In this document: positions 6,304-60,100 of the stretch, piece by piece
How the letters are laid out: each line of letters opens with the position of its first letter
Position numbering within the stretch: position 1 is the first letter of the stretch
Assembly (NCBI RefSeq): GCF_026914265.1
Contig: NC_069127.1
Coordinates: forward strand, 66,103,080 to 66,167,079
Length of the DNA stretch: 64,000 nt
Source of the DNA: Mya arenaria
Taxonomy: Eukaryota; Mollusca; Bivalvia; Myida; Myidae
Reading direction: 5' to 3'
The notes under the pieces: model-generated
Told to the model about the DNA's origin: nothing
The model's input: only the letters and a program-made list of their open reading frames with translations
Databases searched by the model: none
Translations under genes and position numbers: made by a program

Positions 6304-6757
6304 GGCTCAAGACCACAGTTATCTGCCCCCCGTTGACCAAGATCCGGATGTGAATACAGAAACAAAGAGTGCTTGTGTTCAAGTATCAATATTTTATTAA
6401 AATTGAATGAAAAAGAAGCAAAAAATGTTCTTTTTGCAGAGAACTTGACTGAATTTGACACTCTATTGCAGAAATTGATAGTTTTCAATGTAAATATTGG
6501 AAAAATCATAGCTTGTGGAAGTCTGAAAATTAGTTGTTTGTAGCCGATTGACTCCCTGGCGGAAGGGTTATGTATTTGAACTCAATTTTGACAGTCGGGT
6601 CAATGGTCAACATGGTGTTCTCTTGTGATTATATTTTGTGTCTTGAATTGTTCTAGAGATGCCATGTCCTTGTTTTTCAATTGGGGTGTGTATAAAGTCA
6701 AAAGCCAGGTTAGTGTCTATATGAAACATATAGTAAAAATAACTGTGGTCTCACGCC
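6304..6757. repeat. 454-bp direct duplication, copy 2
   Basis: Second identical copy of 3399-3852, including the small splice-flanked segment. Beyond 6757 the sequence diverges completely from that following copy 1. Confidence 0.9.
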
Positions 6758-33100: not shown

Positions 33101-36100
33101 TGCAACATGGTTAAACATGTGACATGGCTCATGAATCATGATGAATACTACTTGTCTTCAATGTGTTTGTTTTCTAAATATGATTCCCCAAAAAGCTTTA
33201 AAGGATAAAGGTAAGCACTAGCGAGATTGAAGATTTTTTATTTAAGTTCAAAAAATGATGATTTGTGCATTTTTCTTAAACCGTTATTAACGGTTTTAGC
33301 CACAAAGCATTAATTTTGGAAAGGAAATATATAAATCTGCGATCGTTTGTAAACAGTCTTTTATAACTCGTTTGCAGATATTTACGCAAAAATTTGCTCA
33401 TTCCAAGACAAAAAATAAAAAAGTTGTAAAAACGGTAAATCTATGAGAGTGCAGCTTTAAAGTTGCACTAATACAGATTGAACGTTTATACAACTTTTTC
33501 AATTTTTGTTTTGGAACGACCCAATGTTTGCGAAAATCCATGGAAGTTCAAAAATTGATGTTTTATGCATTTTTTTAAACCGTTAGTGAAACCATTAAAC
33601 ATTAATTTTCGAACTTTTATATGAAAATCTGCGATCTGAGTTTTTGTCAGCAAATTTCATCATTGGTTTGCAGATATTTACGCAAAAAATTGCTCTTTCA
33701 AAGACAAAAAATAAAAAAAGTTGTAAACATGGTAAATCTGTGAGAGTGCAGCTTTAAAACAGAAAGCCCGTTACAAACTTGTAAAGTTTGATCATGTGCA
33801 ACAACTTTATTTCACGATATACGAAAACAACATTGAATCATTGAAAAGCCGTTTAGTTGAGCTTCAGGCTTGCATGAAATAGACATGTTATAATTAATTA
33901 TCTTCACAACCTCATTTTTCAGTCATGTGAAACACAAAAGAATAACGTGCTAATGTTCTCAACCGGTAAGTTTAGTATTATAAAGATGCAATGTTGTCGC
34001 TCACTAACTTTGATTATAAAACGCCGCAGAAAATGCAAAAGTCAATGCCCCTTAACATATACCGTGTTAAACTGTTATGGTAACCAACACCGATAAATGA
34101 ATTATTGAAATGTTAATATTTTATTTCATTCTCTAAAATTCGGCTTTTGATAAGCAAAGGGGTGCATCACATAAAGGTTTCATAGATGTACCCCTTTGTT
34201 GCTAAGTATTTTCTTCATTCGTTTATTTACAGGCCCGGTGTGCGGCACCAAATGTTGCAACACGTCCCTGTGCAACACCGACAGCTGTAGCCAAAACAGT
34301 CAGACAACAGTTACGAACCCTGTTCCAACACACAGTACGGGTAATGGATCTACATATTTAGATCGTGTCTACAGTGCAAAAAGGTCGAACATAACAATGT
34401 TGTCTATAAAGCAAATAGTGTCTGATATAATAACAGTTTCGATAGTACAAATATCTCTTATATAACAACGGTGTCTAGAGTACAAATATCTCTAATATAA
34501 CAACGGTGTCTAGAGTAGAAATATCTCTAATATAACAACGGTGTCTAGAGTACAAATATCTCTAATATAACAACGGTGTCTAGAGTACAAATATCTCTAA
34601 TATAACAACGGTGTCTAGAGTACAAATATCTCTAATATACGACGGTGTCTATAGCACAAATATCTCTTATATAACAATGGTGTCTAGAGCACAAATATCT
34701 CTAATATAACAATGGTGTCTAGAGTACAAATATCTCTAATATAACAACGGTGTCTAGAGTACAAATAGTCTCTAATAAATTATAACAACGGTGTCTAGAG
34801 TACAAATATCTCTAATATAACAACGGTGTCTAGAGTACAAATATCTCTAATATAACAATGGTGTCAAGAGTACAAATATCTCTTATATAACAACGGTGTT
34901 TAGAGTACAAATATCTCTAATATAGCAACGGTGTCTAGAGTACAAATATCTCTAATATAACAACGGTGTCTAGAGAACAAATATCTCTTATATAACAACG
35001 GTGTCTAGAGTACAAATATCTCTAATATAACAACGGTGTCTAGAGTACAAATATCTCTAATATAACAACGGTGTCTAGAGTACAAATATCTCTTATATAA
35101 CAATGATGTCTAGAGTATAAATATCTCTAATATAACAATGGTGTCTAGAGTACAAATATCTCTAATATAACAACGGTGTCTAGAGTACAAATCTCTCTTA
35201 TATAACAAAGGTGTCTAGAGTACAAATCTCTCTAATATAACAATGGTGTCTAGAGTATAAATATCTCTAATATAACAACGGTGTCTAGAGTACAAATATC
35301 TCTTATATAACAACGGTGTCTAGTGTACATATATCTCTTATATAACAACGGTGTCTAGAGTACAAATATCTCTAATATAACAACGGTGTCTAGAGTACAA
35401 AAATCTCTTATATAACAACGGTGTCTAGAGTACAAATATCTCTAATATAACAACGGTGTCTAGTGTACAAATATATCTTATATAACAACGGTGTCTAGAG
35501 TACAAATATCTCTTATATAACAACGGTGTCTAGAGTATAAATATATCTAATATAACAATGGTGTCTAGAGTACAAATATCTCTAATATAACAACGGTGTC
35601 TAGAGTACAAATATCTCTTATATAACAAAGGTGTCTAGAGTACAAATATCTCTAATATAACAATGGTGTCTAGAGTATAAATATCTCTAATATAACAACG
35701 GTGTCTAGAGTACAAATATCTCTTATATAACAACGGTGTCTAGAGTACACATATCTTTAATATAACAACGGTGTCTAGAGTACAAATATCTCTTATATAA
35801 CAACGGTGTCTAGAGTACAAATATCTCTAATATAGCAACGGTGTCTAGAGTACAAATATCTCTTATATAACAACGGTGTCTAGAGTACAAATATCTCTAA
35901 TATAACAACGGTGTCTAGAGAACAAATATCTCTTATATAACAATGGTGTCTAGAGAACAAATATCTCTTATATAACAATGGTGTCTAGAGTACACATATC
36001 TCTAATATTACAACGGTGTCTAGAGTACAAATATCTCTTATATAACAACGGTGTCTAGAGTACAAATATCTCTAATATAACAACGGTGTCTAGTGTACAA

Positions 36101-39100
36101 ATATATCTTATATAACAACGGTGTCTAGAGTACAAATATCTCTTATATAACAATGGTGTCTAGAGTATAAATATCTCTAAAATAACAATGGTGTCTAGAG
36201 TACAAATATCTCTAATATAACAACGGTGTCTAGAGTACAAATCTCTCTTATATAACAAAGGTGTCTAGAGTACGAATTTCTCTAATATAACAATGGTGTC
36301 TAGAGTATAAATATCTCTAATATAACAACGGTGTCTAGAGTACAAATATCTCTTATATAACAACGGTGTCTAGTGTACATATATCTCTTATATAACAACG
36401 GTGTCTAGAGTACAAATATCTCTAATATAACAACGGTGTCTAGTGTATAAATATATCTGATATAACAAAGGTCTCTAGAGTACAAATATCTCTTATATAA
36501 CAATTGTGTCTAGAGTATAAATATCTCTAAAATAACAATGGTGTCTAGAGTACAAATATCTCTAATATAACAACGGTGTCTAGAGTACAAATATCTCTTA
36601 TATAACAACGGTGTCTAGAGTACAAATATCTCTTAAATAACAACGGTGTCTAGAGCACAAATATTTCTTATATAACAACGGTGTCTAGAGTACAAGTATC
36701 TCTAATATAACAACGGTGTCTAGAGCACAAATATCTCTTATATAACAACGGTGTCTAGAGTACAAATATCTCTAATATAACAACGGTGTCTAGAGTACAA
36801 ATATCTCTAATATAACAACGGTGTCTAGAGCACAAATATCTCTAATATAACAACGGTGTCTAGAGTACAAATATCTCTTATATAACAACGGTGTCTAGAG
36901 CACAAATATTTCTTATATAACAACGGTGTCTAGAGTACAAGTATCTCTAATATAACAACGGTGTCTAGAGCACAAATATCTCTTATATAACAACGGTGTC
37001 TAGAGTACAAATATCTCTAATATAACAACGGTGTCTAGAGCACAAATATCTCTTATATAACAACGGTGTCTAGAGTACACATATCTCTAATATAACAACG
37101 GTGTCTAGAGAACAAATATCTCTCATTTAACAACGGTGTCTAGAGTACAAAAATCTCTTATATAACAACGGTGTCTAGAGTACAAATATCTCTTATATAA
37201 CAACGGTGTCTAGAGTACAAATATCTCTTATATAACAACGGTGTCTAGAGTACAAATATCTCTTATATAACAACGGTGTCTAGAGTACAAATATCTCTTA
37301 TATAACAACGGTGTCTAGAGTACAAATATCTCTTATATAACAACGTTGTCTAGAGTACAAATATCTCTTATATAACAACGGTGTTTAGAGTACAAATATC
37401 TCTTATATAACAAAGGTCTCTAGAGTACAAATATCTCTAATATAACAACGGTGTCTAGAGTACAAATATCTCTTATATAACAACGGTGTCTGGTGTACAA
37501 ATATCTCTAATATAACAACGGTGTCTAGAGTACAAATCTCTCTAATATAACAACGGTGTCTAGAGTACATATCTCTAATATAACAACGGTATCTAGTGTA
37601 CATATCTCTAATATAACAAAGGTGTCTAGAGTACAAATATCTCTTATATAACAACGGTGTCTAGAGTACAAATATCTCTTATAAAACAACGGTGTCTAGA
37701 GTACAAATATCTCTTATATAACAACGGTGTCTAGAGTACAAATATCTCTTATATAACAACGGTGTCTAGAGTATAAATATCTCTAATATAACAACGGTGT
37801 CTAGAGTACAAATATCTCTTATATAACAACGGTGTCTAGAGTACAAATATCTCTAATATAACAACGGTATCTAGTGTACATATCTCTAATATAAGAATGG
37901 TCTTTAGAGTAGAAATATCTCTTATATAACAACGGTATCTAGTGTACAAATATCTCTAATATAACAACGGTGTCTAGTGTACAAATATCTCTAATATAAC
38001 AACGGTGTCTAGAGTACAAATATCTCTAATATAACAACGGTGTCTAGAGTACAAATATCTCTAATATAACAACGGTGTCTAGAGTACAAATATCTCTTAT
38101 ATAACAACGGTGTCTAGAGTACAAATATCTCTTATATAACAACGGTGTCTAGAGTATAAATATCTCTAATATAACAACGGTGTCTAGAGTACAAATATCT
38201 CTTATATAACAACGGTGTCTAGAGTACAAATATCTCTAATATAACAACGGTATCTAGTGTACATATCTCTAATATAAGAATGGTCTTTAGAGTACAAATA
38301 TCTCTTATATAACAACGGTGTCTAGTGTACAAATATCTCTAATATAACAACGGTGTCTAGTGTACAAATATCTCTAATATAACAACGGTGTCTAGAGTAC
38401 AAATATCTTTAATATAACAACGGTGTCTAGAGTACAAATATCTCTAATATAACAACGGTGTCTAGAGTACAAATATCTCTTATATAACAACGGTGTCTAG
38501 AGTACAAATATCTCTTATATAACAACGGTGTCTAGAGTACAAATATCTCTTATATAACAATGGTGTCTAGAGTACAAATATCTCTTATATAACAACGGCG
38601 TCTAGAGTACAAATATCACTTATATTACAAAGGTCTCTAGAGTACAAATATCTCTTATATAACAACGGTGTCTAGAGTACAAATATCTCTTATATAACAA
38701 CGGTGTCTAGAGTACAAATATCTCTCATATAACAACGGTGTCTAGAGTACAAATAGTCTCTTATATAACAACGGTGTCTAGTGTACAAATATCTCTAATA
38801 TAACAACGGTGTCTAGAGTACAAATATCTCTAATATAACAACGGTGTCATGAGTACAAATGTCTCTCATATAACAACGGTGTCTAGTGTACAAATATCTC
38901 TAATATAACAAAGGTGTCTAGAGTACAAATATCTCTTATATAACAACGGTGTCTAGAGTACAAATATCTCTAATATTACAACGGTGTCTAGTGTACAAAT
39001 ATCTCTTATATAACAACGGTGTCTAGAGTACAAATATCTCTAATATAACAAAGGTGTCTAGAGTACAAATATCTCTAATATACGACGGTGTCTATAGCAC

Positions 39101-42100
39101 AAATATCTCTTATATAACAATGGTGTCTAGAGCACAAATATCTCTAATATAACAACGATGTCTAGAGTACAAATATCTCTAATATACCAACGGTGTCTAG
39201 AGTACAAATATCTCTAATATAACAACGGTGTCTAGAGTACAAATATCTCTAATATAACAACGGTGTCTAGAGTACAAATATCTCTTATATAACAACCGTG
39301 TCTAGAGTACAAATATCTCTTATATAACAACGGTGTCTAGAGTACAAATATCTCTTATATAACAACGGTGTCTAGAGTAGAAATATCTCTTATATAACAA
39401 CGGTGTCTAGTGTACACATATATCTAATATAACAACGGTGTCTTGAGTACAAATAGTCTCTAATATTACAACGGTGTCTAGAGTACAAATATCTCTTATA
39501 TAACAAAGGTGTCTAGAGTACAAATATCTCTAATATAACAACGGTGTCTAGAGTACAAATATCTCTTATATAACAACGGTGTCTAGAGTACAAATATCTC
39601 TTATATAACAACGGTGTCTAGAGTACAAATATCTCTTATATAACAACGGTGTCTAGAGTACAAATATCTCTAATATAACAACGGTGTCTAGAGTACAAAT
39701 ATCTCTAATATAACAACGGTGTCTAGAGTACAAATATCTCTAATATAACAACGGTGTCTAGAGTACAAATATCTCTTATATAACAACGGTGTCTAGAGTA
39801 CAAATATCTCTTATATAAGAAAGGTGTCTAGAGTACAAATAGTGTCTAATATAACGACGGTGTCTTGAGTACAAATATCTCTTATATAACGACAGTATCT
39901 AGAGTACAAATATCTCTAAGATAACAAAGGTGTCTAGAGTATATATATCTCTAATATAACAATGGTGTCTAGAGTACAAATATCTCTTATATAACAACGG
40001 TGTCTAGAGTACAAATATCTCTTATATAACAAAGGTGTCTAGAGTACAAATATCTCTTATATAACAACGGTGTCTAGAGTACAAATATCTCTAATATAAC
40101 AACGGTATCTAGATTACAAATAGTATATTTTATAACAATGGTGTCTATAGTACAAAGAGTGTTTACTATTACACGGTGTTTAGAGTACAAATAGTCTCTG
40201 ATATAACAACGGTGTCTATAGTGCAAATAGTCTCTAATAAAACAACTTTGTCTATAGTACAAATAGTGTCTAATATAACAACGGTGTCTTTAGTAAAAAT
40301 AGTGTCTAATATAACAAGGGTGTCTAGAGTACAAATAGTCTCTGATTTAACAACGACGTCCATAGTACAACTAGTCTCTAGTATAACATCGATGTCTAGA
40401 GTACTCTAGTATTACAACAAATAGTCTCTAATATAACAGCGGTTTCTAGAGTACAAATAATCTCTAATTTAACAACGACGTCCATAGTACAACTAGTCTC
40501 TAGTATAACATCGATGTCTAGAGTACTCTAGTATTACAACAAATAGTCTCTAATATAACAACGGTTTCTAGAGTACAAATAGTCTCTAATTTAACAACAG
40601 CGTCCATAGTATAACTAGTCTCTAGTATAACATCGATATCTAGAGTACTCTAGTATTACAACAAATAGTCTCTTATATAACAACGGTTTCTAGAGTACAG
40701 ATAGTCTCTTATTTAACAACAGTGTCTAAAGTACAACAAGTCTCTAGTTTAACAACGGTGTCTATAGTACAAATAGTCTTTAATATAACAACGGTGTCTA
40801 GAGTACAAATATTTCTAATATTACAACGGTGTCTTTAGAACAAATAGTCTCTAATATAGCAACGGTGTCTAGAGTACAAATAGTCTCTAATATAACAACT
40901 GTGTCTAGAGTACAAATAGTCTCTAATATTACAACGGTGTCGTTAGAACAAATAGTCTCTAATATAACAACGGTGTCTAGAGCACAAATATCTCTAATAT
41001 AACAACTGTGTCTAGTGTACAAATATCTCTTATATAACAACGGTGTCTAGAGTACAAATAGTCTCTAATATAACAAAGGTGTCTAGAGTACAAATATCTC
41101 TAATATAACAAAGGTGTCTAGAGTACAAATATCTCTTGTATAACAACGGTGTCTAGAGTACAAATAGTCTCTAATATAACAACGGTGTCTTGAGTACAAA
41201 TAGTCTCTAATATTACAACGGTGTCTAGAGTACAAATATCTCTTATATAACAAAGGTGTCTAGAGTACAAATATCTCTAATATAACAACGGTGTCTAGAG
41301 TACAAATATCTCTTATATAACAACGGTGTCTAGAGTAGAAATATCTCTAATATAACAACTGTGTCTAGAGTACAAATATCTCTAATATAACAACGGTGTC
41401 TAGAGTACAAATATCTCTAATATACCAACGGTGTCTAGAGTACAAATATCTCTAATATAACAACGGTGTCTAGAGTACAAATATCTCTAATATAACAACG
41501 GTGTCTAGAGTACAAATATCTCTTATATAACAACGGTGTCTAGTGTACATATATCTCTTATATCACAAAGGTGTCTAGAGTACAAATATCTCTTATATAA
41601 CAAAGGTGTCTAGAGTACAAATATCTCTTATATAACAACGGTGTCTCTAGAGTACACATATCTCTAATATAACAACGGTGTCTAGAGTACAAATATCTCT
41701 AATATAACAACGGTGTCTAGAGTACAAATATCTCTTATATAACAACGGTGTCTAGTGTACATATATCTCTTATATCACAAAGGTGTCTAGAGTACAAATA
41801 TCTCTTATATAACAAAGGTGTCTAGAGTACAAATATCTCTTATATAACAACGGTGTCTCTAGAGTACACATATCTCTAATATAACAACGGTGTCTAGAGT
41901 ACAAATATCTCTTATATAACAACGGTGTCTAGAGTACAAATATCTCTAATATAACAACGGTGTCTAGAGTAAAAATATCTCTAATATAACAACGGTGTCT
42001 AGAGTACAAATATCTCTAATATAACAACGGTGTCTAGAGTACAAATATCTCTAATATAACAAAGGTGTCTAGAGTACAAATATCTCTTATATAACAACGG

Positions 42101-45100
42101 TGTCTAGAGTACAAATATCTCTTATATAAGAAAGGTGTCTAGAGTACAAATAGTGTCTAATATAACGACGTTGTCTTGAGTACAAATATCTCTTATATAA
42201 CGACAGTATCTAGAGTACAAATATCTCTAAGATAACAAAGATGTCTAGAGTATAAATATCTCTAATATAACAATGGTGTCTAGAGTACAAATATCTCTTA
42301 TATAACAAAGGTGTCTAGAGTACAAATATCTCTTATATAACAACGGTGTCTAAAGTACAAATATCTCTAATATAACAACGGTATCTAGATTACAAATAGT
42401 ATATTTTATAACAATGGTGTCTATAGTACAAAGAGTGTTTACTATTACACGGTGTTTAGAGTACAAATAGTCTCTGATATAACAACGGTGTCTATAGTGC
42501 AAATAGTCTCTAATATAACAACTTTGTCTATAGTACAAATAGTGTCTAATATAACAACGGTGTCTTTAGTAAAAATAGTGTCTAATATAACAAGGGTGTC
42601 TAGAGTACAAATAGTCTCTGATTTAACAACGACGTCCATAGTACAACTAGTCTCTAGTATAACATCGATGTCTAGAGTACTCTAGTATTACAACAAATAG
42701 TCTCTAATATAACAGCGGTTTCTAGAGTACAAATAATCTCTAATTTAACAACGACGTCCATAGTACAACTAGTCTCTAGTATAACATCGATGTCTAGAGT
42801 ACTCTAGTATTACAACAAATAGTCTCTAATATAACAACGGTTTCTAGAGTACAAATAGTCTCTAATTTAACAACGGCGTCCATAGTATAACCAGTCTCTA
42901 GTATAACATCGATGTCTAGAGTACTCTAGTATTACAACAAATAGTCTCTTATATAACAACGGTTTCTAGAGTACAGATAGTCTCTTATTTAACAACAGTG
43001 TCTAAAGTACAACAAGTCTCTAGTTTAACAACGGTGTCTATAGTACAAATAGTCTTTAATTGAACAACGGCGTCAAAAGTACAAATAGTCTCTAATATAA
43101 CAACGGTGTCTAGAGTACAAATAGTCTCTAATATAACAACTGTGTCTAGAGTACAAATAGTCTCTTATATTACAACGGTGTCTTTAGAACTAATAGTCTC
43201 TAATATAACAACGGTGTCTAGAGTACAAATAGTCTCTAATATAACAACTGTGTCTAGAGTACAAATAGTCTCTAATATTACAACGGTGTCGTTAGAACAA
43301 ATAGTCTCTAATATAACAACGGTGTCTAGAGTACAAATATCTCTAATATAACAAAGGTGTCTAGAGTACAAATATCTCTTATATAACAACGGTGTCTAGA
43401 GTACAAATAGTCTCTAATATAACAACGGTGTCTTGAGTACAAATAGTCTCTAATATTACAACGGTGTCTAGAGTACAAATATCTCTTATATAACAAAGGT
43501 GTCTAGAGTACAAATATCTCTAATAAAACAATGGTGTCTAGAGTACAAATATCTCTTATATAACAACGGTGTCTAGAGTAGAAATATCTCTAATATAACA
43601 ACTGTGTCTAGAGTACAAATATCTCTAATATAACAACGGTGTCTAGAGTACAAATATCTCTAATATAACAACGGTGTCTAGAGTACAAATATCTCTAATA
43701 TAACAACGGTGTCTAGAGTACAAATATCTCTAATATAACAACGGTGTCTAGAGTGCAAATAGTCTCTTATATAACAACGGTGTCTAGTGTACATATATCT
43801 CTTATATAACAAAGGTGTCTAGAGTACAAATATCTCTTATATAACAAAGGTGTCTAGAGTACAAATATCTCTTATATAACAACGGTGTCTCTAGAGTACA
43901 CATATCTCTAATATAACAACGGTGTCTAGAGTACAAATATCTCTTATATAACAACTGTGTCTAGAGTACAAATATCTCTAATATAACAACGGTGTCTAGA
44001 GTACAAATATCTCTAATATAAAAACGGTGTCTAGAGTACAAATATCTCTAATATAACAAAGGTGTCTAGAGTACAAATATCTCTAATATAACAACGGTGT
44101 CTAGAGTATAAATATCTCTTATATAACAACGGTGTCTAGAGTACAAATATCTCTTATATAAGAAAGGTGTCTTGAGTACAAATAGTGTCTAATATAACGA
44201 CGGTGTCTTGAGTACAAATATATCTTATATAACGACAGTATCTAGAGTACAAATATCTCTAAGATAACAAAGGTTTCTAGAGTATAAATATCTCTAATAT
44301 AACAATGGTGTCTAGAGTACAAATATCTCTTATATAACAACGGTGTCTAGAGTACAAATATCTCTTATATGACAATGGTGTCTAGAGTACAAATATCTCT
44401 AATATACCAACGGTGTCTAGAGTACAAATATCTCTAATATAACAACGGTATCTAGATTACAAATAGTATATTTTATAACAATGGTGTCTATAGTACAAAG
44501 AGTGTTTACTATTACACGGTGTTTAGAGTACAAATAGTCTCTGATATAACAACGGTGTCTATAGTGCAAATAGTCTCTAATATAACAACTTTGTCTATAT
44601 TACAAATAGTGTCTAATATAACAACGGTGTCTTTAGTAAAAATAGTGTCTAATATAACAAGGGTGTCTAGAGTACAAATAGTCTCTGATTTAACAACGAC
44701 GTCCATAGTACAACTAGTCTCTAGTATAACATCGATGTCTAGAGTACTCTAGTATTACAACAAATAGTCTCTAATATAACAGCGGTTTCTAGAGTACAAA
44801 TAATCTCTAATTTAACAACGACGTCCATAGTACAACTAGTCTCTAGTATAACATCGATGTCTAGATTACTCTAGTATTACAACAAATAGTCTCTAATATA
44901 ACAACGGTTTCTAGAGTACAAATAGTCTCTAATTTAACAACGGCGTCCATAGTATAACTAGTCTCTAGTATAACATCGATGTCTAGAGTACTCTAGTATT
45001 ACAACAAATAGTCTCTTATATAACAACGGTTTCTAGAGTACAGATAGTCTCTTATTTAACAACAGTGTCTAAAGTACAACAAGTCTCTAGTTTAACAACG

Positions 45101-48100
45101 GTGTCTATAGTACAAAAAGTCTTTAATTGAACAACGGCGTCAAAAGTACAAATAGTCTCTAATATAACAACGGTGTCTAGAGTACAAATAGTCTCTAATA
45201 TAACAACTGTGTCTAGAGTACAAATAGTCTCTTATATTACAACGGTGTCTTTAGAACAAATAGTCTCTAATATAACAAAGGTGTCTAGAGTACAAATATC
45301 TCTAATATAACAAAGGTGTCTAGAGTACAAATATCTCTTATATAACAACGGTGTCTAGAGTACAAATAGTCTCTAATATAACAAAGGTGTCTAGAGTACA
45401 AATATCACTTATATAACAACGGTGTCTAGAGTACAAATATCTCTAATATAACAACGGTGTCTAGAGTACAAATATCTCTAATATAACAATGGTGTCTAGA
45501 GTACAAATAGTGTCTAATATAACGACGGTGTCTTGAGTACAAATAGTCTCTTCTATAACAACGGTGTCTAGAGTACAAATAGTCTCTAATATAACAACGG
45601 TGTCATGAGTACAAATGTCTCTCATATAACAACGGTGTCTAGTGTACAAATATCTCTAATATAACAAAGGTGTCTAGAGTACAAATATCTCTTATATAAT
45701 AACGGTGTCTAGAGTACAAATATCTCTAATATTACAACGGTGTCTAGTGTACAAATATCTCTTATATAACAACGGTGTCTAGAGTACAAATATCTCTAAT
45801 AAAACAAAGGTGTCTAGAGTACAAATATCTCTAATATACGACGGTGTCTATAGCACAAATATCTCTTATATAACAATGGTGTCTAGAGCACAAATATCTC
45901 TAATATAACAACGATGTCTAGAGTACAAATATCTCTAATATACCAACGGTGTCTAGAGTACAAATATCTCTAATATAACAACGGTGTCTAGAGTACAAAT
46001 ATCTCTAATATAACAACGGTGTCTAGAGTACAAATATCTCTTATATAACAACCGTGTCTAGAGTACAAATATCTCTTATATAACAACGGTGTCTAGAGTA
46101 CAAATATCTCTTATATAACAACGGTGTCTAGAGTAGAAATATCTCTTATATAACAACGGTGTCTAGTGTACACATATATCTAATATAACAACGGTGTCTT
46201 GAGTACAAATAGTCTCTAATATTACAACGGTGTCTAGAGTACAAATATCTCTTATATAACAAAGGTGTCTAGAGTACAAATATCTCTAATATAACAACGG
46301 TGTCTAGAGTACAAATATCTCTTATATAACAACGGTGTCTAGAGTACAAATATCTCTTATATAACAACGGTGTCTAGAGTACAAATATCTCTTATATAAC
46401 AACGGTGTCTAGAGTACAAATATCTCTAATATAACAACTGTGTCTAGAGTACAAATATCTCTAATATAACAAAGGTGTCTAGAGTACAAATATCTCTAAT
46501 ATAACAACGGTGTCTAGAGTATAAATATCTCTTATATAACAACGGTGTCTAGAGTACAAATATCTCTTATATAAGAAAGGTGTCTAGAGTACAAATAGTG
46601 TCTAATATAACGACGGTGTCTTGAGTACAAATATCTCTTATATAACGACAGTATTTAGAGTACAAATATCTCTAAGATAACAAAGGTGTCTAGAGTATAT
46701 ATATCTCTAATATAACAATGGTGTCTAGAGTACAAATATCTCTTATATAACAACGGTGTCTAGAGTACAAATATCTCTTATATAACAAAGGTGTCTAGAG
46801 TACAAATATCTCTTATATAACAACGGTGTCTAGAGTACAAATATCTCTAATATAACAACGGTATCTAGATTACAAATAGTATATTTTATAACAATGGTGT
46901 CTATAGTACAAAGAGTGTTTACTATTACACGGTGTTTAGAGTACAAATAGTCTCTGATATAACAACGGTGTCTATAGTGCAAATAGTCTCTAATAAAACA
47001 ACTTTGTCTATAGTACAAATAGTGTCTAATATAACAACGGTGTCTTTAGTAAAAATAGTGTCTAATATAACAAGGGTGTCTAGAGTACAAATAGTCTCTG
47101 ATTTAACAACGACGTCCATAGTACAACTAGTCTCTAGTATAACATCGATGTCTAGAGTACTCTAGTATTACAACAAATAGTCTCTAATATAACAGCGGTT
47201 TCTAGAGTACAAATAATCTCTAATTTAACAACGACGTCCATAGTACAACTAGTCTCTAGTATAACATCGATGTCTAGAGTACTCTAGTATTACAACAAAT
47301 AGTCTCTAATATAACAACGGTTTCTAGAGTACAAATAGTCTCTAATTTAACAACAGCGTCCATAGTATAACTAGTCTCTAGTATAACATCGATATCTAGA
47401 GTACTCTAGTATTACAACAAATAGTCTCTTATATAACAACGGTTTCTAGAGTACAGATAGTCTCTTATTTAACAACAGTGTCTAAAGTACAACAAGTCTC
47501 TAGTTTAACAACGGTGTCTATAGTACAAATAGTCTTTAATATAACAACGGTGTCTAGAGTACAAATATTTCTAATATTACAACGGTGTCTTTAGAACAAA
47601 TAGTCTCTAATATAGCAACGGTGTCTAGAGTACAAATAGTCTCTAATATAACAACTGTGTCTAGAGTACAAATAGTCTCTAATATTACAACGGTGTCGTT
47701 AGAACAAATAGTCTCTAATATAACAACGGTGTCTAGAGCACAAATATCTCTAATATAACAACTGTGTCTAGTGTACAAATATCTCTTATATAACAACGGT
47801 GTCTAGAGTACAAATAGTCTCTAATATAACAAAGGTGTCTAGAGTACAAATATCTCTAATATAACAAAGGTGTCTAGAGTACAAATATCTCTTGTATAAC
47901 AACGGTGTCTAGAGTACAAATAGTCTCTAATATAACAACGGTGTCTTGAGTACAAATAGTCTCTAATATTACAACGGTGTCTAGAGTACAAATATCTCTT
48001 ATATAACAAAGGTGTCTAGAGTACAAATATCTCTAATATAACAACGGTGTCTAGAGTACAAATATCTCTTATATAACAACGGTGTCTAGAGTAGAAATAT

Positions 48101-51100
48101 CTCTAATATAACAACTGTGTCTAGAGTACAAATATCTCTAAGATAACAACGGTGTCTAGAGTACAAATATCTCTAATATACCAACGGTGTCTAGAGTACA
48201 AATATCTCTAATATAGCAACGGTGTCTAGAGTACAAATATCTCTAATATAACAACGGTGTCTAGAGTACAAATATCTCTTATATAACAACGGTGTCTAGT
48301 GTACATATATCTCTTATATCACAAAGGTGTCTAGAGTACAAATATCTCTTATATAACAAAGGTGTCTAGAGTACAAATATCTCTTATATAACAACGGTGT
48401 CTCTAGAGTACACATATCTCTAATATAACAACGGTGTCTAGAGTACAAATATCTCTAATATAACAACGGTGTCTAGAGTACAAATATCTCTTATATAACA
48501 ACGGTGTCTAGTGTACATATATCTCTTATATCACAAAGGTGTCTAGAGTACAAATATCTCTTATATAACAAAGGTGTCTAGAGTACAAATATCTCTTATA
48601 TAACAACGGTGTCTCTAGAGTACACATATCTCTAATATAACAACGGTGTCTAGAGTACAAATATCTCTTATATAACAACGGTGTCTAGAGTACAAATATC
48701 TCTAATATAACAACGGTGTCTAGAGTAAAAATATCTCTAATATAACAACGGTGTCTAGAGTACAAATATCTCTAATATAACAACGGTGTCTAGAGTACAA
48801 ATATCTCTAATATAACAAAGGTGTCTAGAGTACAAATATCTCTTATATAACAACGGTGTCTAGAGTACAAATATCTCTTATATAAGAAAGGTGTCTAGAG
48901 TACAAATAGTGTCTAATATAACGACGTTGTCTTGAGTACAAATATCTCTTATATAACGACAGTATCTAGAGTACAAATATCTCTAAGATAACAAAGATGT
49001 CTAGAGTATAAATATCTCTAATATAACAATGGTGTCTAGAGTACAAATATCTCTTATATAACAAAGGTGTCTAGAGTACAAATATCTCTTATATAACAAC
49101 GGTGTCTAAAGTACAAATATCTCTAATATAACAACGGTATCTAGATTACAAATAGTATATTTTATAACAATGGTGTCTATAGTACAAAGAGTGTTTACTA
49201 TTACACGGTGTTTAGAGTACAAATAGTCTCTGATATAACAACGGTGTCTATAGTGCAAATAGTCTCTAATATAACAACTTTGTCTATAGTACAAATAGTG
49301 TCTAATATAACAACGGTGTCTTTAGTAAAAATAGTGTCTAATATAACAAGGGTGTCTAGAGTACAAATAGTCTCTGATTTAACAACGACGTCCATAGTAC
49401 AACTAGTCTCTAGTATAACATCGATGTCTAGAGTACTCTAGTATTACAACAAATAGTCTCTAATATAACAGCGGTTTCTAGAGTACAAATAATCTCTAAT
49501 TTAACAACGACGTCCATAGTACAACTAGTCTCTAGTATAACATCGATGTCTAGAGTACTCTAGTATTACAACAAATAGTCTCTAATATAACAACGGTTTC
49601 TAGAGTACAAATAGTCTCTAATTTAACAACGGCGTCCATAGTATAACCAGTCTCTAGTATAACATCGATGTCTAGAGTACTCTAGTATTACAACAAATAG
49701 TCTCTTATATAACAACGGTTTCTAGAGTACAGATAGTCTCTTATTTAACAACAGTGTCTAAAGTACAACAAGTCTCTAGTTTAACAACGGTGTCTATAGT
49801 ACAAATAGTCTTTAATTGAACAACGGCGTCAAAAGTACAAATAGTCTCTAATATAACAACGGTGTCTAGAGTACAAATAGTCTCTAATATAACAACTGTG
49901 TCTAGAGTACAAATAGTCTCTTATATTACAACGGTGTCTTTAGAACTAATAGTCTCTAATATAACAACGGTGTCTAGAGTACAAATAGTCTCTAATATAA
50001 CAACTGTGTCTAGAGTACAAATAGTCTCTAATATTACAACGGTGTCGTTAGAACAAATAGTCTCTAATATAACAACGGTGTCTAGAGTACAAATATCTCT
50101 AATATAACAAAGGTGTCTAGAGTACAAATATCTCTTATATAACAACGGTGTCTAGAGTACAAATAGTCTCTAATATAACAACGGTGTCTTGAGTACAAAT
50201 AGTCTCTAATATTACAACGGTGTCTAGAGTACAAATATCTCTTATATAACAAAGGTGTCTAGAGTACAAATATCTCTAATAAAACAATGGTGTCTAGAGT
50301 ACAAATATCTCTTATATAACAACGGTGTCTAGAGTAGAAATATCTCTAATATAACAACTGTGTCTAGAGTACAAATATCTCTAATATAACAACGGTGTCT
50401 AGAGTACAAATATCTCTAATATACCAACGGTGTCTAGAGTACAAATATCTCTAATATAACAACGGTGTCTAGAGTACAAATATCTCTAATATAACAACGG
50501 TGTCTAGAGTGCAAATAGTCTCTTATATAACAACGGTGTCTAGTGTACATATATCTCTTATATAACAAAGGTGTCTAGAGTACAAATATCTCTTATATAA
50601 CAAAGGTGTCTAGAGTACAAATATCTCTTATATAACAACGGTGTCTCTAGAGTACACATATCTCTAATATAACAACGGTGTCTAGAGTACAAATATCTCT
50701 TATATAACAACTGTGTCTAGAGTACAAATATCTCTAATATAACAACGGTGTCTAGAGTACAAATATCTCTAATATAAAAACGGTGTCTAGAGTACAAATA
50801 TCTCTAATATAACAAAGGTGTCTAGAGTACAAATATCTCTAATATAACAACGGTGTCTAGAGTATAAATATCTCTTATATAACAACGGTGTCTAGAGTAC
50901 AAATATCTCTTATATAAGAAAGGTGTCTTGAGTACAAATAGTGTCTAATATAACGACGGTGTCTTGAGTACAAATATATCTTATATAACGACAGTATCTA
51001 GAGTACAAATATCTCTAAGATAACAAAGGTTTCTAGAGTATAAATATCTCTAATATAACAATGGTGTCTAGAGTACAAATATCTCTTATATAACAACGGT

Positions 51101-54100
51101 GTCTAGAGTACAAATATCTCTTATATGACAATGGTGTCTAGAGTACAAATATCTCTAATATACCAACGGTGTCTAGAGTACAAATATCTCTAATATAACA
51201 ACGGTATCTAGATTACAAATAGTATATTTTATAACAATGGTGTCTATAGTACAAAGAGTGTTTACTATTACACGGTGTTTAGAGTACAAATAGTCTCTGA
51301 TATAACAACGGTGTCTATAGTGCAAATAGTCTCTAATATAACAACTTTGTCTATATTACAAATAGTGTCTAATATAACAACGGTGTCTTTAGTAAAAATA
51401 GTGTCTAATATAACAAGGGTGTCTAGAGTACAAATAGTCTCTGATTTAACAACGACGTCCATAGTACAACTAGTCTCTAGTATAACATCGATGTCTAGAG
51501 TACTCTAGTATTACAACAAATAGTCTCTAATATAACAGCGGTTTCTAGAGTACAAATAATCTCTAATTTAACAACGACGTCCATAGTACAACTAGTCTCT
51601 AGTATAACATCGATGTCTAGATTACTCTAGTATTACAACAAATAGTCTCTAATATAACAACGGTTTCTAGAGTACAAATAGTCTCTAATTTAACAACGGC
51701 GTCCATAGTATAACTAGTCTCTAGTATAACATCGATGTCTAGAGTACTCTAGTATTACAACAAATAGTCTCTTATATAACAACGGTTTCTAGAGTACAGA
51801 TAGTCTCTTATTTAACAACAGTGTCTAAAGTACAACAAGTCTCTAGTTTAACAACGGTGTCTATAGTACAAAAAGTCTTTAATTGAACAACGGCGTCAAA
51901 AGTACAAATAGTCTCTAATATAACAACGGTGTCTAGAGTACAAATAGTCTCTAATATAACAACTGTGTCTAGAGTACAAATAGTCTCTTATATTACAACG
52001 GTGTCTTTAGAACAAATAGTCTCTAATATAACAAAGGTGTCTAGAGTACAAATATCTCTAATATAACAAAGGTGTCTAGAGTACAAATATCTCTTATATA
52101 ACAACGGTGTCTAGAGTACAAATAGTCTCTAATATAACAAAGGTGTCTAGAGTACAAATATCACTTATATAACAACGGTGTCTAGAGTACAAATATCTCT
52201 AATATAACAACGGTGTCTAGAGTACAAATATCTCTAATATAACAATGGTGTCTAGAGTACAAATAGTGTCTAATATAACGACGGTGTCTTGAGTACAAAT
52301 AGTCTCTTCTATAACAACGGTGTCTAGAGTACAAATAGTCTCTAATATAACAACGGTGTCATGAGTACAAATGTCTCTCATATAACAACGGTGTCTAGTG
52401 TACAAATATCTCTAATATAACAAAGGTGTCTAGAGTACAAATATCTCTTATATAATAACGGTGTCTAGAGTACAAATATCTCTAATATTACAACGGTGTC
52501 TAGTGTACAAATATCTCTTATATAACAACGGTGTCTAGAGTACAAATATCTCTAATAAAACAAAGGTGTCTAGAGTACAAATATCTCTAATATACGACGG
52601 TGTCTATAGCACAAATATCTCTTATATAACAATGGTGTCTAGAGCACAAATATCTCTAATATAACAACGATGTCTAGAGTACAAATATCTCTAATATACC
52701 AACGGTGTCTAGAGTACAAATATCTCTAATATAACAACGGTGTCTAGAGTACAAATATCTCTAATATAACAACGGTGTCTAGAGTACAAATATCTCTTAT
52801 ATAACAACCGTGTCTAGAGTACAAATATCTCTTATATAACAACGGTGTCTAGAGTACAAATATCTCTTATATAACAACGGTGTCTAGAGTAGAAATATCT
52901 CTTATATAACAACGGTGTCTAGTGTACACATATATCTAATATAACAACGGTGTCTTGAGTACAAATAGTCTCTAATATTACAACGGTGTCTAGAGTACAA
53001 ATATCTCTTATATAACAAAGGTGTCTAGAGTACAAATATCTCTAATATAACAACGGTGTCTAGAGTACAAATATCTCTTATATAACAACGGTGTCTAGAG
53101 TACAAATATCTCTTATATAACAACGGTGTCTAGAGTACAAATATCTCTTATATAACAACGGTGTCTAGAGTACAAATATCTCTAATATAACAACTGTGTC
53201 TAGAGTACAAATATCTCTAATATAACAAAGGTGTCTAGAGTACAAATATCTCTAATATAACAACGGTGTCTAGAGTATAAATATCTCTTATATAACAACG
53301 GTGTCTAGAGTACAAATATCTCTTATATAAGAAAGGTGTCTAGAGTACAAATAGTGTCTAATATAACGACGGTGTCTTGAGTACAAATATCTCTTATATA
53401 ACGACAGTATTTAGAGTACAAATATCTCTAAGATAACAAAGGTGTCTAGAGTATATATATCTCTAATATAACAATGGTGTCTAGAGTACAAATATCTCTT
53501 ATATAACAACGGTGTCTAGAGTACAAATATCTCTTATATAACAAAGGTGTCTAGAGTACAAATATCTCTTATATAACAACGGTGTCTAGAGTACAAATAT
53601 CTCTAATATAACAACGGTATCTAGATTACAAATAGTATATTTTATAACAATGGTGTCTATAGTACAAAGAGTGTTTACTATTACACGGTGTTTAGAGTAC
53701 AAATAGTCTCTGATATAACAACGGTGTCTATAGTGCAAATAGTCTCTAATAAAACAACTTTGTCTATAGTACAAATAGTGTCTAATATAACAACGGTGTC
53801 TTTAGTAAAAATAGTGTCTAATATAACAAGGGTGTCTAGAGTACAAATAGTCTCTGATTTAACAACGACGTCCATAGTACAACTAGTCTCTAGTATAACA
53901 TCGATGTCTAGAGTACTCTAGTATTACAACAAATAGTCTCTAATATAACAGCGGTTTCTAGAGTACAAATAATCTCTAATTTAACAACGACGTCCATAGT
54001 ACAACTAGTCTCTAGTATAACATCGATGTCTAGAGTACTCTAGTATTACAACAAATAGTCTCTAATATAACAACGGTTTCTAGAGTACAAATAGTCTCTA

Positions 54101-57100
54101 ATTTAACAACAGCGTCCATAGTATAACTAGTCTCTAGTATAACATCGATATCTAGAGTACTCTAGTATTACAACAAATAGTCTCTTATATAACAACGGTT
54201 TCTAGAGTACAGATAGTCTCTTATTTAACAACAGTGTCTAAAGTACAACAAGTCTCTAGTTTAACAACGGTGTCTATAGTACAAATAGTCTTTAATATAA
54301 CAACGGTGTCTAGAGTACAAATATTTCTAATATTACAACGGTGTCTTTAGAACAAATAGTCTCTAATATAGCAACGGTGTCTAGAGTACAAATAGTCTCT
54401 AATATAACAACTGTGTCTAGAGTACAAATAGTCTCTAATATTACAACGGTGTCGTTAGAACAAATAGTCTCTAATATAACAACGGTGTCTAGAGCACAAA
54501 TATCTCTAATATAACAACTGTGTCTAGTGTACAAATATCTCTTATATAACAACGGTGTCTAGAGTACAAATAGTCTCTAATATAACAAAGGTGTCTAGAG
54601 TACAAATATCTCTAATATAACAAAGGTGTCTAGAGTACAAATATCTCTTGTATAACAACGGTGTCTAGAGTACAAATAGTCTCTAATATAACAACGGTGT
54701 CTTGAGTACAAATAGTCTCTAATATTACAACGGTGTCTAGAGTACAAATATCTCTTATATAACAAAGGTGTCTAGAGTACAAATATCTCTAATATAACAA
54801 CGGTGTCTAGAGTACAAATATCTCTTATATAACAACGGTGTCTAGAGTAGAAATATCTCTAATATAACAACTGTGTCTAGAGTACAAATATCTCTAAGAT
54901 AACAACGGTGTCTAGAGTACAAATATCTCTAATATACCAACGGTGTCTAGAGTACAAATATCTCTAATATAGCAACGGTGTCTAGAGTACAAATATCTCT
55001 AATATAACAACGGTGTCTAGAGTACAAATATCTCTTATATAACAACGGTGTCTAGTGTACATATATCTCTTATATCACAAAGGTGTCTAGAGTACAAATA
55101 TCTCTTATATAACAAAGGTGTCTAGAGTACAAATATCTCTTATATAACAACGGTGTCTCTAGAGTACACATATCTCTAATATAACAACGGTGTCTAGAGT
55201 ACAAATATCTCTAATATAACAACGGTGTCTAGAGTACAAATATCTCTTATATAACAACGGTGTCTAGTGTACATATATCTCTTATATCACAAAGGTGTCT
55301 AGAGTACAAATATCTCTTATATAACAAAGGTGTCTAGAGTACAAATATCTCTTATATAACAACGGTGTCTCTAGAGTACACATATCTCTAATATAACAAC
55401 GGTGTCTAGAGTACAAATATCTCTTATATAACAACGGTGTCTAGAGTACAAATATCTCTAATATAACAACGGTGTCTAGAGTAAAAATATCTCTAATATA
55501 ACAACGGTGTCTAGAGTACAAATATCTCTAATATAACAACGGTGTCTAGAGTACAAATATCTCTAATATAACAAAGGTGTCTAGAGTACAAATATCTCTT
55601 ATATAACAACGGTGTCTAGAGTACAAATATCTCTTATATAAGAAAGGTGTCTAGAGTACAAATAGTGTCTAATATAACGACGTTGTCTTGAGTACAAATA
55701 TCTCTTATATAACGACAGTATCTAGAGTACAAATATCTCTAAGATAACAAAGATGTCTAGAGTATAAATATCTCTAATATAACAATGGTGTCTAGAGTAC
55801 AAATATCTCTTATATAACAAAGGTGTCTAGAGTACAAATATCTCTTATATAACAACGGTGTCTAAAGTACAAATATCTCTAATATAACAACGGTATCTAG
55901 ATTACAAATAGTATATTTTATAACAATGGTGTCTATAGTACAAAGAGTGTTTACTATTACACGGTGTTTAGAGTACAAATAGTCTCTGATATAACAACGG
56001 TGTCTATAGTGCAAATAGTCTCTAATATAACAACTTTGTCTATAGTACAAATAGTGTCTAATATAACAACGGTGTCTTTAGTAAAAATAGTGTCTAATAT
56101 AACAAGGGTGTCTAGAGTACAAATAGTCTCTGATTTAACAACGACGTCCATAGTACAACTAGTCTCTAGTATAACATCGATGTCTAGAGTACTCTAGTAT
56201 TACAACAAATAGTCTCTAATATAACAGCGGTTTCTAGAGTACAAATAATCTCTAATTTAACAACGACGTCCATAGTACAACTAGTCTCTAGTATAACATC
56301 GATGTCTAGAGTACTCTAGTATTACAACAAATAGTCTCTAATATAACAACGGTTTCTAGAGTACAAATAGTCTCTAATTTAACAACGGCGTCCATAGTAT
56401 AACCAGTCTCTAGTATAACATCGATGTCTAGAGTACTCTAGTATTACAACAAATAGTCTCTTATATAACAACGGTTTCTAGAGTACAGATAGTCTCTTAT
56501 TTAACAACAGTGTCTAAAGTACAACAAGTCTCTAGTTTAACAACGGTGTCTATAGTACAAATAGTCTTTAATTGAACAACGGCGTCAAAAGTACAAATAG
56601 TCTCTAATATAACAACGGTGTCTAGAGTACAAATAGTCTCTAATATAACAACTGTGTCTAGAGTACAAATAGTCTCTTATATTACAACGGTGTCTTTAGA
56701 ACTAATAGTCTCTAATATAACAACGGTGTCTAGAGTACAAATAGTCTCTAATATAACAACTGTGTCTAGAGTACAAATAGTCTCTAATATTACAACGGTG
56801 TCGTTAGAACAAATAGTCTCTAATATAACAACGGTGTCTAGAGTACAAATATCTCTAATATAACAAAGGTGTCTAGAGTACAAATATCTCTTATATAACA
56901 ACGGTGTCTAGAGTACAAATAGTCTCTAATATAACAACGGTGTCTTGAGTACAAATAGTCTCTAATATTACAACGGTGTCTAGAGTACAAATATCTCTTA
57001 TATAACAAAGGTGTCTAGAGTACAAATATCTCTAATAAAACAATGGTGTCTAGAGTACAAATATCTCTTATATAACAACGGTGTCTAGAGTAGAAATATC

Positions 57101-60100
57101 TCTAATATAACAACTGTGTCTAGAGTACAAATATCTCTAATATAACAACGGTGTCTAGAGTACAAATATCTCTAATATACCAACGGTGTCTAGAGTACAA
57201 ATATCTCTAATATAACAACGGTGTCTAGAGTACAAATATCTCTAATATAACAACGGTGTCTAGAGTGCAAATAGTCTCTTATATAACAACGGTGTCTAGT
57301 GTACATATATCTCTTATATAACAAAGGTGTCTAGAGTACAAATATCTCTTATATAACAAAGGTGTCTAGAGTACAAATATCTCTTATATAACAACGGTGT
57401 CTCTAGAGTACACATATCTCTAATATAACAACGGTGTCTAGAGTACAAATATCTCTTATATAACAACTGTGTCTAGAGTACAAATATCTCTAATATAACA
57501 ACGGTGTCTAGAGTACAAATATCTCTAATATAAAAACGGTGTCTAGAGTACAAATATCTCTAATATAACAAAGGTGTCTAGAGTACAAATATCTCTAATA
57601 TAACAACGGTGTCTAGAGTATAAATATCTCTTATATAACAACGGTGTCTAGAGTACAAATATCTCTTATATAAGAAAGGTGTCTTGAGTACAAATAGTGT
57701 CTAATATAACGACGGTGTCTTGAGTACAAATATATCTTATATAACGACAGTATCTAGAGTACAAATATCTCTAAGATAACAAAGGTTTCTAGAGTATAAA
57801 TATCTCTAATATAACAATGGTGTCTAGAGTACAAATATCTCTTATATAACAACGGTGTCTAGAGTACAAATATCTCTTATATGACAATGGTGTCTAGAGT
57901 ACAAATATCTCTAATATACCAACGGTGTCTAGAGTACAAATATCTCTAATATAACAACGGTATCTAGATTACAAATAGTATATTTTATAACAATGGTGTC
58001 TATAGTACAAAGAGTGTTTACTATTACACGGTGTTTAGAGTACAAATAGTCTCTGATATAACAACGGTGTCTATAGTGCAAATAGTCTCTAATATAACAA
58101 CTTTGTCTATATTACAAATAGTGTCTAATATAACAACGGTGTCTTTAGTAAAAATAGTGTCTAATATAACAAGGGTGTCTAGAGTACAAATAGTCTCTGA
58201 TTTAACAACGACGTCCATAGTACAACTAGTCTCTAGTATAACATCGATGTCTAGAGTACTCTAGTATTACAACAAATAGTCTCTAATATAACAGCGGTTT
58301 CTAGAGTACAAATAATCTCTAATTTAACAACGACGTCCATAGTACAACTAGTCTCTAGTATAACATCGATGTCTAGATTACTCTAGTATTACAACAAATA
58401 GTCTCTAATATAACAACGGTTTCTAGAGTACAAATAGTCTCTAATTTAACAACGGCGTCCATAGTATAACTAGTCTCTAGTATAACATCGATGTCTAGAG
58501 TACTCTAGTATTACAACAAATAGTCTCTTATATAACAACGGTTTCTAGAGTACAGATAGTCTCTTATTTAACAACAGTGTCTAAAGTACAACAAGTCTCT
58601 AGTTTAACAACGGTGTCTATAGTACAAAAAGTCTTTAATTGAACAACGGCGTCAAAAGTACAAATAGTCTCTAATATAACAACGGTGTCTAGAGTACAAA
58701 TAGTCTCTAATATAACAACTGTGTCTAGAGTACAAATAGTCTCTTATATTACAACGGTGTCTTTAGAACAAATAGTCTCTAATATAACAAAGGTGTCTAG
58801 AGTACAAATATCTCTAATATAACAAAGGTGTCTAGAGTACAAATATCTCTTATATAACAACGGTGTCTAGAGTACAAATAGTCTCTAATATAACAAAGGT
58901 GTCTAGAGTACAAATATCACTTATATAACAACGGTGTCTAGAGTACAAATATCTCTAATATAACAACGGTGTCTAGAGTACAAATATCTCTAATATAACA
59001 ATGGTGTCTAGAGTACAAATAGTGTCTAATATAACGACGGTGTCTTGAGTACAAATAGTCTCTTATATAACAACGGTGTCTAGAGTACAAATAGTCTCTA
59101 ATATAACAACGGTGTCTAGAGTACAAATAGTCTCTAATATAACAACGGTGTCTAGAGTACAAATAGTCTCTAATATTACAACGGTGTCGTTAGAACAAAT
59201 AGTCTCTAATATAACAACGGTGTCTAGAGCACAAATATCTCTAATATAACAACTGTGTCTAGTGTACAAATATCTCTTATATAACAACGGTGTCTAGAGT
59301 ACAAATAGTCTCTAATATAACAAAGGTGTCTAGAGTACAAATATCTCTAATATAACAAAGGTGTCTAGAGTACAAATATCTCTTATATAACAACGGTGTC
59401 TAGAGTACAAATAGTCTCTAATATAACAAAGGTGTCTAGAGTACAAATATCACTTATATAACAACGGTGTCTAGAGTACAAATATCTCTAATATAACAAC
59501 GGTGTCTAGAGTACAAATATCTCTAATATAACAATGGTGTCTAGAGTACAAATAGTGTCTAATATAACGACGGTGTCTTGAGTACAAATAGTCTCTTCTA
59601 TAACAACGGTGTCTAGAGTACAAATAGTCTCTAATATAACAACGGTGTCTAGAGTACAAATATTCTCTAATATTAAAACGGGTTTTTTAGTACAAAAAGT
59701 CTCTAATATAATAACGGTGTCTATATTACAGATAGTCTCTGATATACCAACGGTGTCTATAGTACAGATAGTCTCTGATATGACAACGGTTTTTATAGTA
59801 CAGATAGTCTATGCTATACCAACGGTGTCTATAGTACAGATAGTCTATGATATACCAACGGTGTCTATAGAATAGATAGTCTCTGATATAACAAAATTTT
59901 CTACATTGCAAGGCTGCCCAACAGGAAACCACTGGATTGACTTCGGCAACTCTTGCTACTTCATCGGCGATAGGGAATTAAGCTGGAGCGACTCCCAGGT
60001 AATGGACTGGCCTCTAGTGGGCCTTTTTTCATAAACACATTGGGTCTTTGACACATAAAAGCAGTTAAGACTTCGACATATGGGTAGAAACAGTGTGATG

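Follow-up and report, generated by a model that had tools for sequence, protein, structure and literature searches.

A minisatellite that grew locally from the 3' end of its host intron probably explains a 25.6-kb intron in the bivalve Mya arenaria

Very long introns are commonly attributed to the insertion of transposons or satellites, and the question raised by the locus analyzed here is whether an intron might also become giant starting from a sequence of its own. The window, that is, the whole stretch of 64,000 nucleotides of Mya arenaria that we analyzed (C6:66103080-66167079), embeds a putative gene with Ly6-like and C-type lectin exons, two of which, exons D and E, are separated by a long minisatellite array; the intron between them is about 0.3 kb long in a paralogue and 25.6 kb long here. 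On the whole, we consider it probable that this is a spliced-out intron made giant by local minisatellite growth, the seed of which lay at its own 3' end. The genome-wide searches reported below covered 1,216,080,610 bp in 18 contigs, and all the features of the window are given on the + strand.

The intron between exon D and exon E (34341..59912) is 25,572 bp long and lies in phase 1, with CGG|GTAATG at the donor and CAAG|GCTGCC at the acceptor. The first-pass annotation of this DNA had described it as made almost entirely of one minisatellite of roughly 700 units of 35/36 bp, beginning about 23 bp after the donor and ending in the acceptor, and this description is borne out by the wrap-around alignment, with which Tandem Repeats Finder (TRF) agrees. 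Indeed, the array (34365..59894) is unbroken, accounts for 99.8% of the intron and contains 712 units (143 distinct), the first of which starts 24 bp past 34341; at the other end the aligned part stops 18 bp short of the acceptor, and the remaining 18 nt are in register with the unit. According to the same alignment, full units are 35 bp (436 units), 36 bp (229) or 50 bp (27) long, 27 units carry at least 10 inserted bases, and the mean identity to the 36-bp consensus is 92%. The array thus consists of contiguous head-to-tail units within the range of about 10-100 bp that defines a minisatellite. The first-pass annotation also proposed that its length might differ between individuals, as in a variable number tandem repeat (VNTR), and that it could influence splicing, pausing, or chromatin at this gene. 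As far as exact patterns show, which miss diverged arrays and limit the statement to that extent, this minisatellite is specific to the locus: an exact 71-bp pattern has a single match in the genome, inside the array, and 21 exact copies of a variant unit occur in the genome, all of them in the array and equal in number to those counted in the window. The comparison of the unit with the other sequence of the window, including its 38-bp and 32-bp arrays, revealed no relic beating shuffles, and the search of viral contigs with the repeat pattern gave 0 matches.

The relationship between the array and the 3' end of the intron is the evidence on which our interpretation mainly relies. As for the last 18 nt before the acceptor, the register that continues the array is the best of the 36 possible ones, and only 2 out of 1641 AG-ending 18-mers elsewhere in the window fit the unit as well. 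The 24-nt head following the donor does not share this register, since 27% of the 24-mers taken elsewhere score as well. Unit-like sequence is also present at two paralogous loci, namely in the D-E intron on contig C9 (wrap-around score 72, vs. a shuffle maximum of 42; n = 300) and before the exon homologous to E on contig C12 (score 50, vs. a shuffle maximum of 34; n = 300); the match reaches the acceptor on C12 and stops 7 nt before it on C9. When the last 52 nt of the intron are aligned, 38/52 columns agree with C9 and 35/52 with C12, and in neither case was any of 500 shuffles as good. The C9 intron contains five copies of the motif, 35-38 bp apart, and C12 two copies 37 bp apart, the last two of the window being 36 bp apart (by eye); moreover, a stretch of 15 nt at the 5' edge of the array, TGTCTACAGTGCAAA, recurs exactly in the C9 intron. 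The match of the unit is not significant after exon D in the paralogous stretch L025 (79/300 shuffles as good) or before exons B, C, and D of the window (30, 286, and 183 out of 300, respectively). A point that weighs against a common module is that the direct comparison of C12 with C9 is weak, 2/500 shuffles being as good.

Since both clear paralogues have the module before the acceptor, we suggest that the array grew from a repeat located at the 3' end of the intron. A short tandem repeat at this position most likely predates the paralogues and reached 712 units only in the locus analyzed here, so far as the sequences can tell. According to this idea, the ancestral intron would have had at its end a few tandem copies of a module of about 36 bp, up to the acceptor; slippage during replication and unequal exchange would then have amplified an inner unit devoid of the acceptor AG, in stages that might have involved first the unit, then a block of about 2.2 kb, and then a block of 6.76 kb. 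Degraded older units would have been left at both edges of the array, the true acceptor would have been retained in the last of them, and the spliceosome would join exon D to exon E across the whole array, which may be tolerated since strong splice sites able to compete are few in its units.

The internal structure of the array is compatible with such a nested growth. It comprises a higher-order repeat (38827..59064) in which, as revealed by a long-lag comparison, a block of 6,756 bp is present three times (38827-45582, 45583-52338, and 52339-59064), the third copy being 6,726 bp long, i.e., 30 bp short. Between copies 1 and 2 there are 9 differences, the last of which is at 43668, and copies 2 and 3 are identical; the blocks are therefore 99.9-100% identical to each other vs. 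the 92% mean identity of the monomers to their consensus. Each 6,756-bp block embeds, in turn, three related sub-blocks, with spacings of 2,276, 2,067, and 2,413 bp, which have in common an ordered run of unit types, 50-bp units included. The two arms lying outside the repeated blocks (34365-38826 and 59065-59894) still belong to the 35/36-bp array, and the left one has short duplications of its own.

The edges of the array are degraded. At the 5' side (34365..34446), where the 15 nt matching the C9 intron are located, units 2 and 3 carry 10 and 8 substitutions; at the 3' side (59836..59912), which runs in register into the acceptor and aligns with the 3' ends of the C9 and C12 introns, the last seven units carry from 3 to 8. 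Among the 702 interior units, the median number of substitutions is 2 and the highest 7. According to an established model, unequal exchange homogenizes the center of an array and leaves its edges behind, and the edge units analyzed here would be more diverged because of this process, as that model predicts. However, at least 6 substitutions are found in 45 of the 702 interior units, so that the divergence of the edges has to be considered a tendency.

How far the size of the array reflects the genome itself is a different issue. At a lag of 6,756 bp, the array shows an exact run of 8,640 bp, and therefore its copy number may depend on the assembly. The lack of any difference between block copies 2 and 3 could likewise be an assembly effect, in the sense that, at the 6,756-bp block, the assembly either unrolled an array that is in fact shorter or collapsed one that is longer. 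The Mya arenaria assembly was produced by running FALCON-Unzip on PacBio reads, and 10x reads served to polish it (PMC10663159), an approach that might be expected to handle such repeats poorly. On the other hand, the 9 sites at which copy 1 departs from the other two, as well as the existence of two arms that lie beyond the blocks and are still made of 35/36-bp units, do not fit a mere artefact. We regard it as possible, albeit not as the probable case, that the size of the array is in part due to the assembly.

The interpretation of the array as an intron requires that the exons on its two sides belong to the same gene. Upstream of the array, we recognized the N-terminal part of a first Ly6-like module (exon B, 27091..27173), its C-terminal part (exon Ct1, 30116..30205, CSQCCQGDLCN, with a possible alternative acceptor before 30105), and the N-terminal, middle, and C-terminal parts of a second one (exon C, 30769..30863; exon mid, 33923..33965, with donor CCG|GTAAGT; and exon D, 34233..34340, which encodes GPVCGTKCCNTSLCN... 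and a Ser/Thr-rich linker). The donor GT of exon mid is at the same position in all seven paralogues compared; a longer version of this exon (33923-34079) was rejected, given the donor at 33966 and the same placement in the paralogues, and a match to TOLIP (0.037) was discounted since it came from the rejected model. Downstream of the array, the first C-type lectin exon (exon E, 59913..59998, GCPTGNHWIDFGNSCYFIGDRELSWSDSQ) has lectin matches in the PDB and two clear paralogous exons, and it is followed, to the right of the window, by the lectin exons CTL2 (L001:4823-4909) and CTL3 (within L001:5421-5627), the latter with a stop. Exons C through E form a single open frame, and D and E join in phase 1. 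A signal exon and a middle exon of the first Ly6-like module were sought and not found, and a motif scan did not find the lectin exon expected between E and CTL2.

The two domain labels given by the first-pass annotation fared differently. That of C-type lectin is supported: exon E matches lectin chains of the PDB (best E value 9e-4), along with designed TPR proteins (from 0.004), and the joined exons E, CTL2, and CTL3 pass the cut-off of the Pfam family Lectin_C (2.8e-7; 31.7 bits vs. 22.6). As for the Ly6/uPAR label, the cysteine pattern fits by eye, while the Pfam family PF00087 stays below its cut-off of 21.2 bits both for the module of the window (0.11; 13.7 bits) and for paralogues (0.062 and 0.0067, the latter 17.6 bits). 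The full joined protein gave no match with PF00087, and the PDB matches of the Ly6-like part were led by the unrelated PAXX (0.16), the best Ly6 protein being at 1.7. The cysteine pattern and the sub-threshold Pfam scores thus only hint at a Ly6/uPAR identity, and for this reason we speak of Ly6-like modules.

The comparison with paralogous loci is the one that bears most directly on the unity of the gene. The search yielded 46 matches at E <= 1, with a query whose middle part was incorrect or overlong, and the neighborhoods compared were those of matches on C4, C9, C12, and C16, setting aside those on C1, C2, C5, C8, C10, elsewhere on C6, and in parts of C16. Exon D is recognizable at seven paralogous loci on C4, C9, and C16, with 61-78% identity over 35-36 residues, and two further C4 loci match it in short or broken form only. 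The C9 paralogue has the order B-Ct1-C-mid-D-E-CTL2-CTL3, and its D and E, with matching phases, are about 280 bp apart. The one-gene interpretation, already advanced by the first-pass annotation, is supported by the phase-1 join and by this paralogue, which repeats the exon order with D and E so close to each other; we regard the latter as the best evidence that the array would be the intron of one gene. The same paralogous loci also provide the main reason for caution. Among the seven with a clear exon D, exon E is present at C9 only; the stretches examined of the other six (L021, L025, L027, L028, L030, and L035) show none. A genome-wide search with exon E at E <= 1 gave four matches, three of which are clear copies of the exon: one is that of the window, and the others lie on C12 (3e-11) and C9 (1.5e-9), whereas the fourth, on C7, is weak (0.45). 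The approximately 19 kb examined upstream of the C12 exon contain no clear Ly6-like exon, apart from a marginal match (E 0.049) that overlaps the C12 exon itself.

The alternative is that D and E are exons of two different genes, or that transcripts end within the array, in which case there would be no intron at all. Since exon E is missing from the stretches examined at six of these seven loci, this idea is to be weighed slightly up and the one-gene interpretation slightly down. The frame of exon D is, moreover, open to a stop ending at 34465, and the donor position, which is AATG|GT in all the paralogous D exons but one (six out of seven, L030 having AATG|TT), reads AATG|GA here; the array also contains 323 copies of AATATA, a weak poly(A)-like word. 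To these observations one can oppose the in-phase donor CGG|GTAATG located 6 nt upstream, which is the best one (a second in-phase GT is at 34335), the C9 locus, where D and E have matching phases and the same lectin exons come after them, and the poverty of the array in AATAAA (9 in 25.5 kb vs. 1.43/kb elsewhere). Hence, we consider the separation of D and E into different genes improbable. Besides, at five of these loci (L025, L027, L028, L030, and L035) a different, GC-rich array of about 50 bp lies 144-253 bp past exon D.

If D and E belong to one gene, the spliceosome has to cross 25.6 kb of repeats. The splice matrices we used are generic, and the scores have to be read accordingly; with this in mind, the array looks nearly splice-silent. 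None of its 2350 GTs outscores the donor, although 537 reach the score of the alternative donor at 34335, and 49 of its 1741 AGs, from 11 out of 182 distinct contexts, reach the score of the true acceptor. Acceptor-like sites scoring at least 5 occur at 0.04/kb in the array vs. 4.91/kb in the rest of the window, and the AG homologous to that of the acceptor is retained in 16 of 711 units, the last five among them. Some points, however, weigh against this picture: weak donors (score of at least 3) are more common in the array than outside it (21.2 vs. 8.1/kb), and the true acceptor itself scores poorly (3.15 vs. 8.4-10.3 for exons B, C, and D). Furthermore, the units share one ancestor, so that their paucity in splice sites amounts to little more than one observation, and the splice between D and E is itself deduced from the sequence; that selection has favored the scarcity is what we would at most infer.

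These features lead to a bolder idea, which we put forward tentatively and regard as unlikely, that is, that the 3' splice-site module is itself a seed of giant introns, offering a self-permitting route to gigantism. A repeat carrying branch-point-like and acceptor sequence would copy itself inward, the copies would lose their AG and become nearly splice-silent, and the sole functional acceptor would be carried along at the end, so that the RNA would become a dense array of splicing-factor-like motifs. If this were true, three stages of the process (2, 5, and 712 copies) would be found within one gene family of one genome.

Might the array have a function of its own? Its RNA, with hundreds of binding motifs, could in principle act as a protein platform or as a timer for the gene. 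UCUCU, which we take to be PTB-like, occurs at 25.2/kb in the array vs. 0.7/kb in the rest of the window; CTRAY (RNA CURAY), presumably branch-point-like, at 15.2 vs. 2.6/kb; and the bipartite CUAAY..UAAY, presumably STAR-like, at 12.0 vs. 0.3/kb. In addition, the Drosophila PTB homologue Heph has been reported to be required for kl-5 mRNA (PMC6508621). Nevertheless, any amplified unit enriches its own words, and the motifs were chosen after the unit had been inspected; no stable RNA structure was detected in the array, whose folds are ordinary with respect to shuffles (z 1.15 and 0.34), and the C9 paralogue manages without the array. A dedicated function therefore seems to us quite improbable, and a near-neutral expansion with no such function is the most likely case; genes with long alleles of the array might perhaps be expressed less efficiently.

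It is very improbable, in our opinion, that the array came from elsewhere, as a transposon-borne or dispersed minisatellite inserted in the intron, and that its likeness to the intron end is due to chance. Minisatellites on the kilobase scale are indeed common in the loci examined: in a sample, not random, of 25 ten-kb nuclear stretches flanking the window or located at the paralogues, tandem repeats with a period of at least 10 cover 21% on average, and arrays of at least 1 kb and at least 5 kb are present in 9 and 4 stretches, respectively. But both paralogous introns have the module at the same place, the 21 exact matches of the variant unit and the sole 71-bp match all fall inside the array (with the mentioned blindness to diverged arrays), and no relic elsewhere in the window beats shuffles. 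That the array once coded for a 12-residue repeat and became an intron later is hardly credible, since the one forward frame open in the 36-bp units, although it is the frame of the gene at both edges, would agree with it by chance about 1 time in 9, and the differences among units show no coding pattern (in nine late units, 9 silent and 27 replacing changes in the frame of the gene, 10 and 26 in each other frame).

Other repeats and reading frames were observed in the surroundings. An unrelated 32-bp minisatellite identified by TRF (28406..29171) occupies part of another intron of this gene, upstream of the array, and kilobase-scale minisatellites are found at L001:2047-4632 (57 bp), L003:3260-8826 (32 bp), L004:3239-8304 (33 bp), and L024:2504-9497 (42 bp), the last of these, on C12, having its central segment reversed. 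In three paralogues, tandem duplications of 93-98 bp in about two copies are located where exon B begins or close to that point (L030:2780-2985, L028:1810-1996, and L022:4695-4928). Two long reading frames of the window (9691-11313 and 14322-16103; 540 and 593 aa) are tandem paralogues, a third copy of which begins in the right flank (L001:9337 onwards); neither has a convincing Pfam match, and the second has no PDB match below 0.6. Two nearly identical frame segments (VQIHNPSARESIGYKQ...) about 3 kb apart, at 3287-3676 and 6297-6581, may represent a local duplication or a dispersed repeat, and the short frames with PFYRKQPRM-like text that flank the array (32165-32349 and 61487-61588) suggest a dispersed repeat.

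Among known systems, the closest one is represented by the "mirages" of amphioxus, minisatellite-like tandem duplications of exon-intron boundaries reported in Adh3 and in globin genes, the splicing of which is described as regular (PMC3087553). As in mirages, the clam unit appears to derive from the sequence at a splice boundary, as suggested by the in-register tail and by the module in both clear paralogues, and the boundary units escape homogenization. Unlike mirages, in which the unit spans the boundary and includes exon sequence, the clam unit stops at the acceptor, exon E continuing it at about 2 out of 13 positions (by eye); furthermore, the clam array has 712 units vs. the few reported for globin genes, is nested, and belongs to a mollusc. 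The C9 paralogue offers a closer likeness: just past its exon E, a 78-bp array (L019:820-3264) spans the boundary, since its unit matches the exon end and the donor at 50/59 nt, with a score of 82 vs. a shuffle maximum of 27. Arrays of this kind are rare in the family. Those detected by TRF, which misses the degraded C9 cases, cross 1 out of 81 family junctions (exon B of L030, with 2.2 copies of 93 bp) vs. 19% of random positions; therefore, boundary-crossing arrays are not a general habit of this gene family. Four other arrays tested for a seed at nearby junctions gave no clear case, the comparison of the end of exon D with the 50-bp unit of L025 being borderline (9/200 shuffles as good).

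In size, the array resembles the human CACNA1C TRACT, an intronic VNTR with a 30-bp unit and a length of 3 to more than 30 kb, the long alleles of which are linked to reduced expression in two tissues (PMC13131567). The abstract of that paper mentions no origin from a splice-site module, and the clam array, differently from TRACT, fills the whole intron. The gigantic, satellite-filled introns of the Drosophila Y-linked genes kl-3 and kl-5, the latter of which needs the PTB homologue for its mRNA (PMC6508621), pose a similar problem, in that transcription and splicing must cross tandem repeats. The scale and the kind of sequence differ, as those introns are reported to comprise megabases of simple satellites vs. 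25.6 kb of a 35-bp unit that is restricted to one locus by exact patterns. The nested organization recalls, instead, centromeric satellites, whose higher-order repeats consist of diverged monomers inside nearly identical blocks of several kilobases; the likeness lies in this arrangement, and the difference in that the clam array is small, intronic, and limited to three blocks.

Among open-licence papers, to which our literature search was limited, we found none combining the features described here, none joining minisatellite, splice acceptor, and mollusc, none related to the letters of the repeat, and none on a domain architecture with Ly6 and C-type lectin in bivalves. The kind of phenomenon is already known from intronic minisatellites and mirages; what sets this case apart is its scale, its nesting, and the series of three stages among paralogues. 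At one splice site, these paralogues show successive degrees of growth from the 3' end of an intron, which can be traced unit by unit, and they give a testable reason for the tolerance of such arrays, namely the amplification of a unit devoid of the acceptor AG and of strong competing sites.

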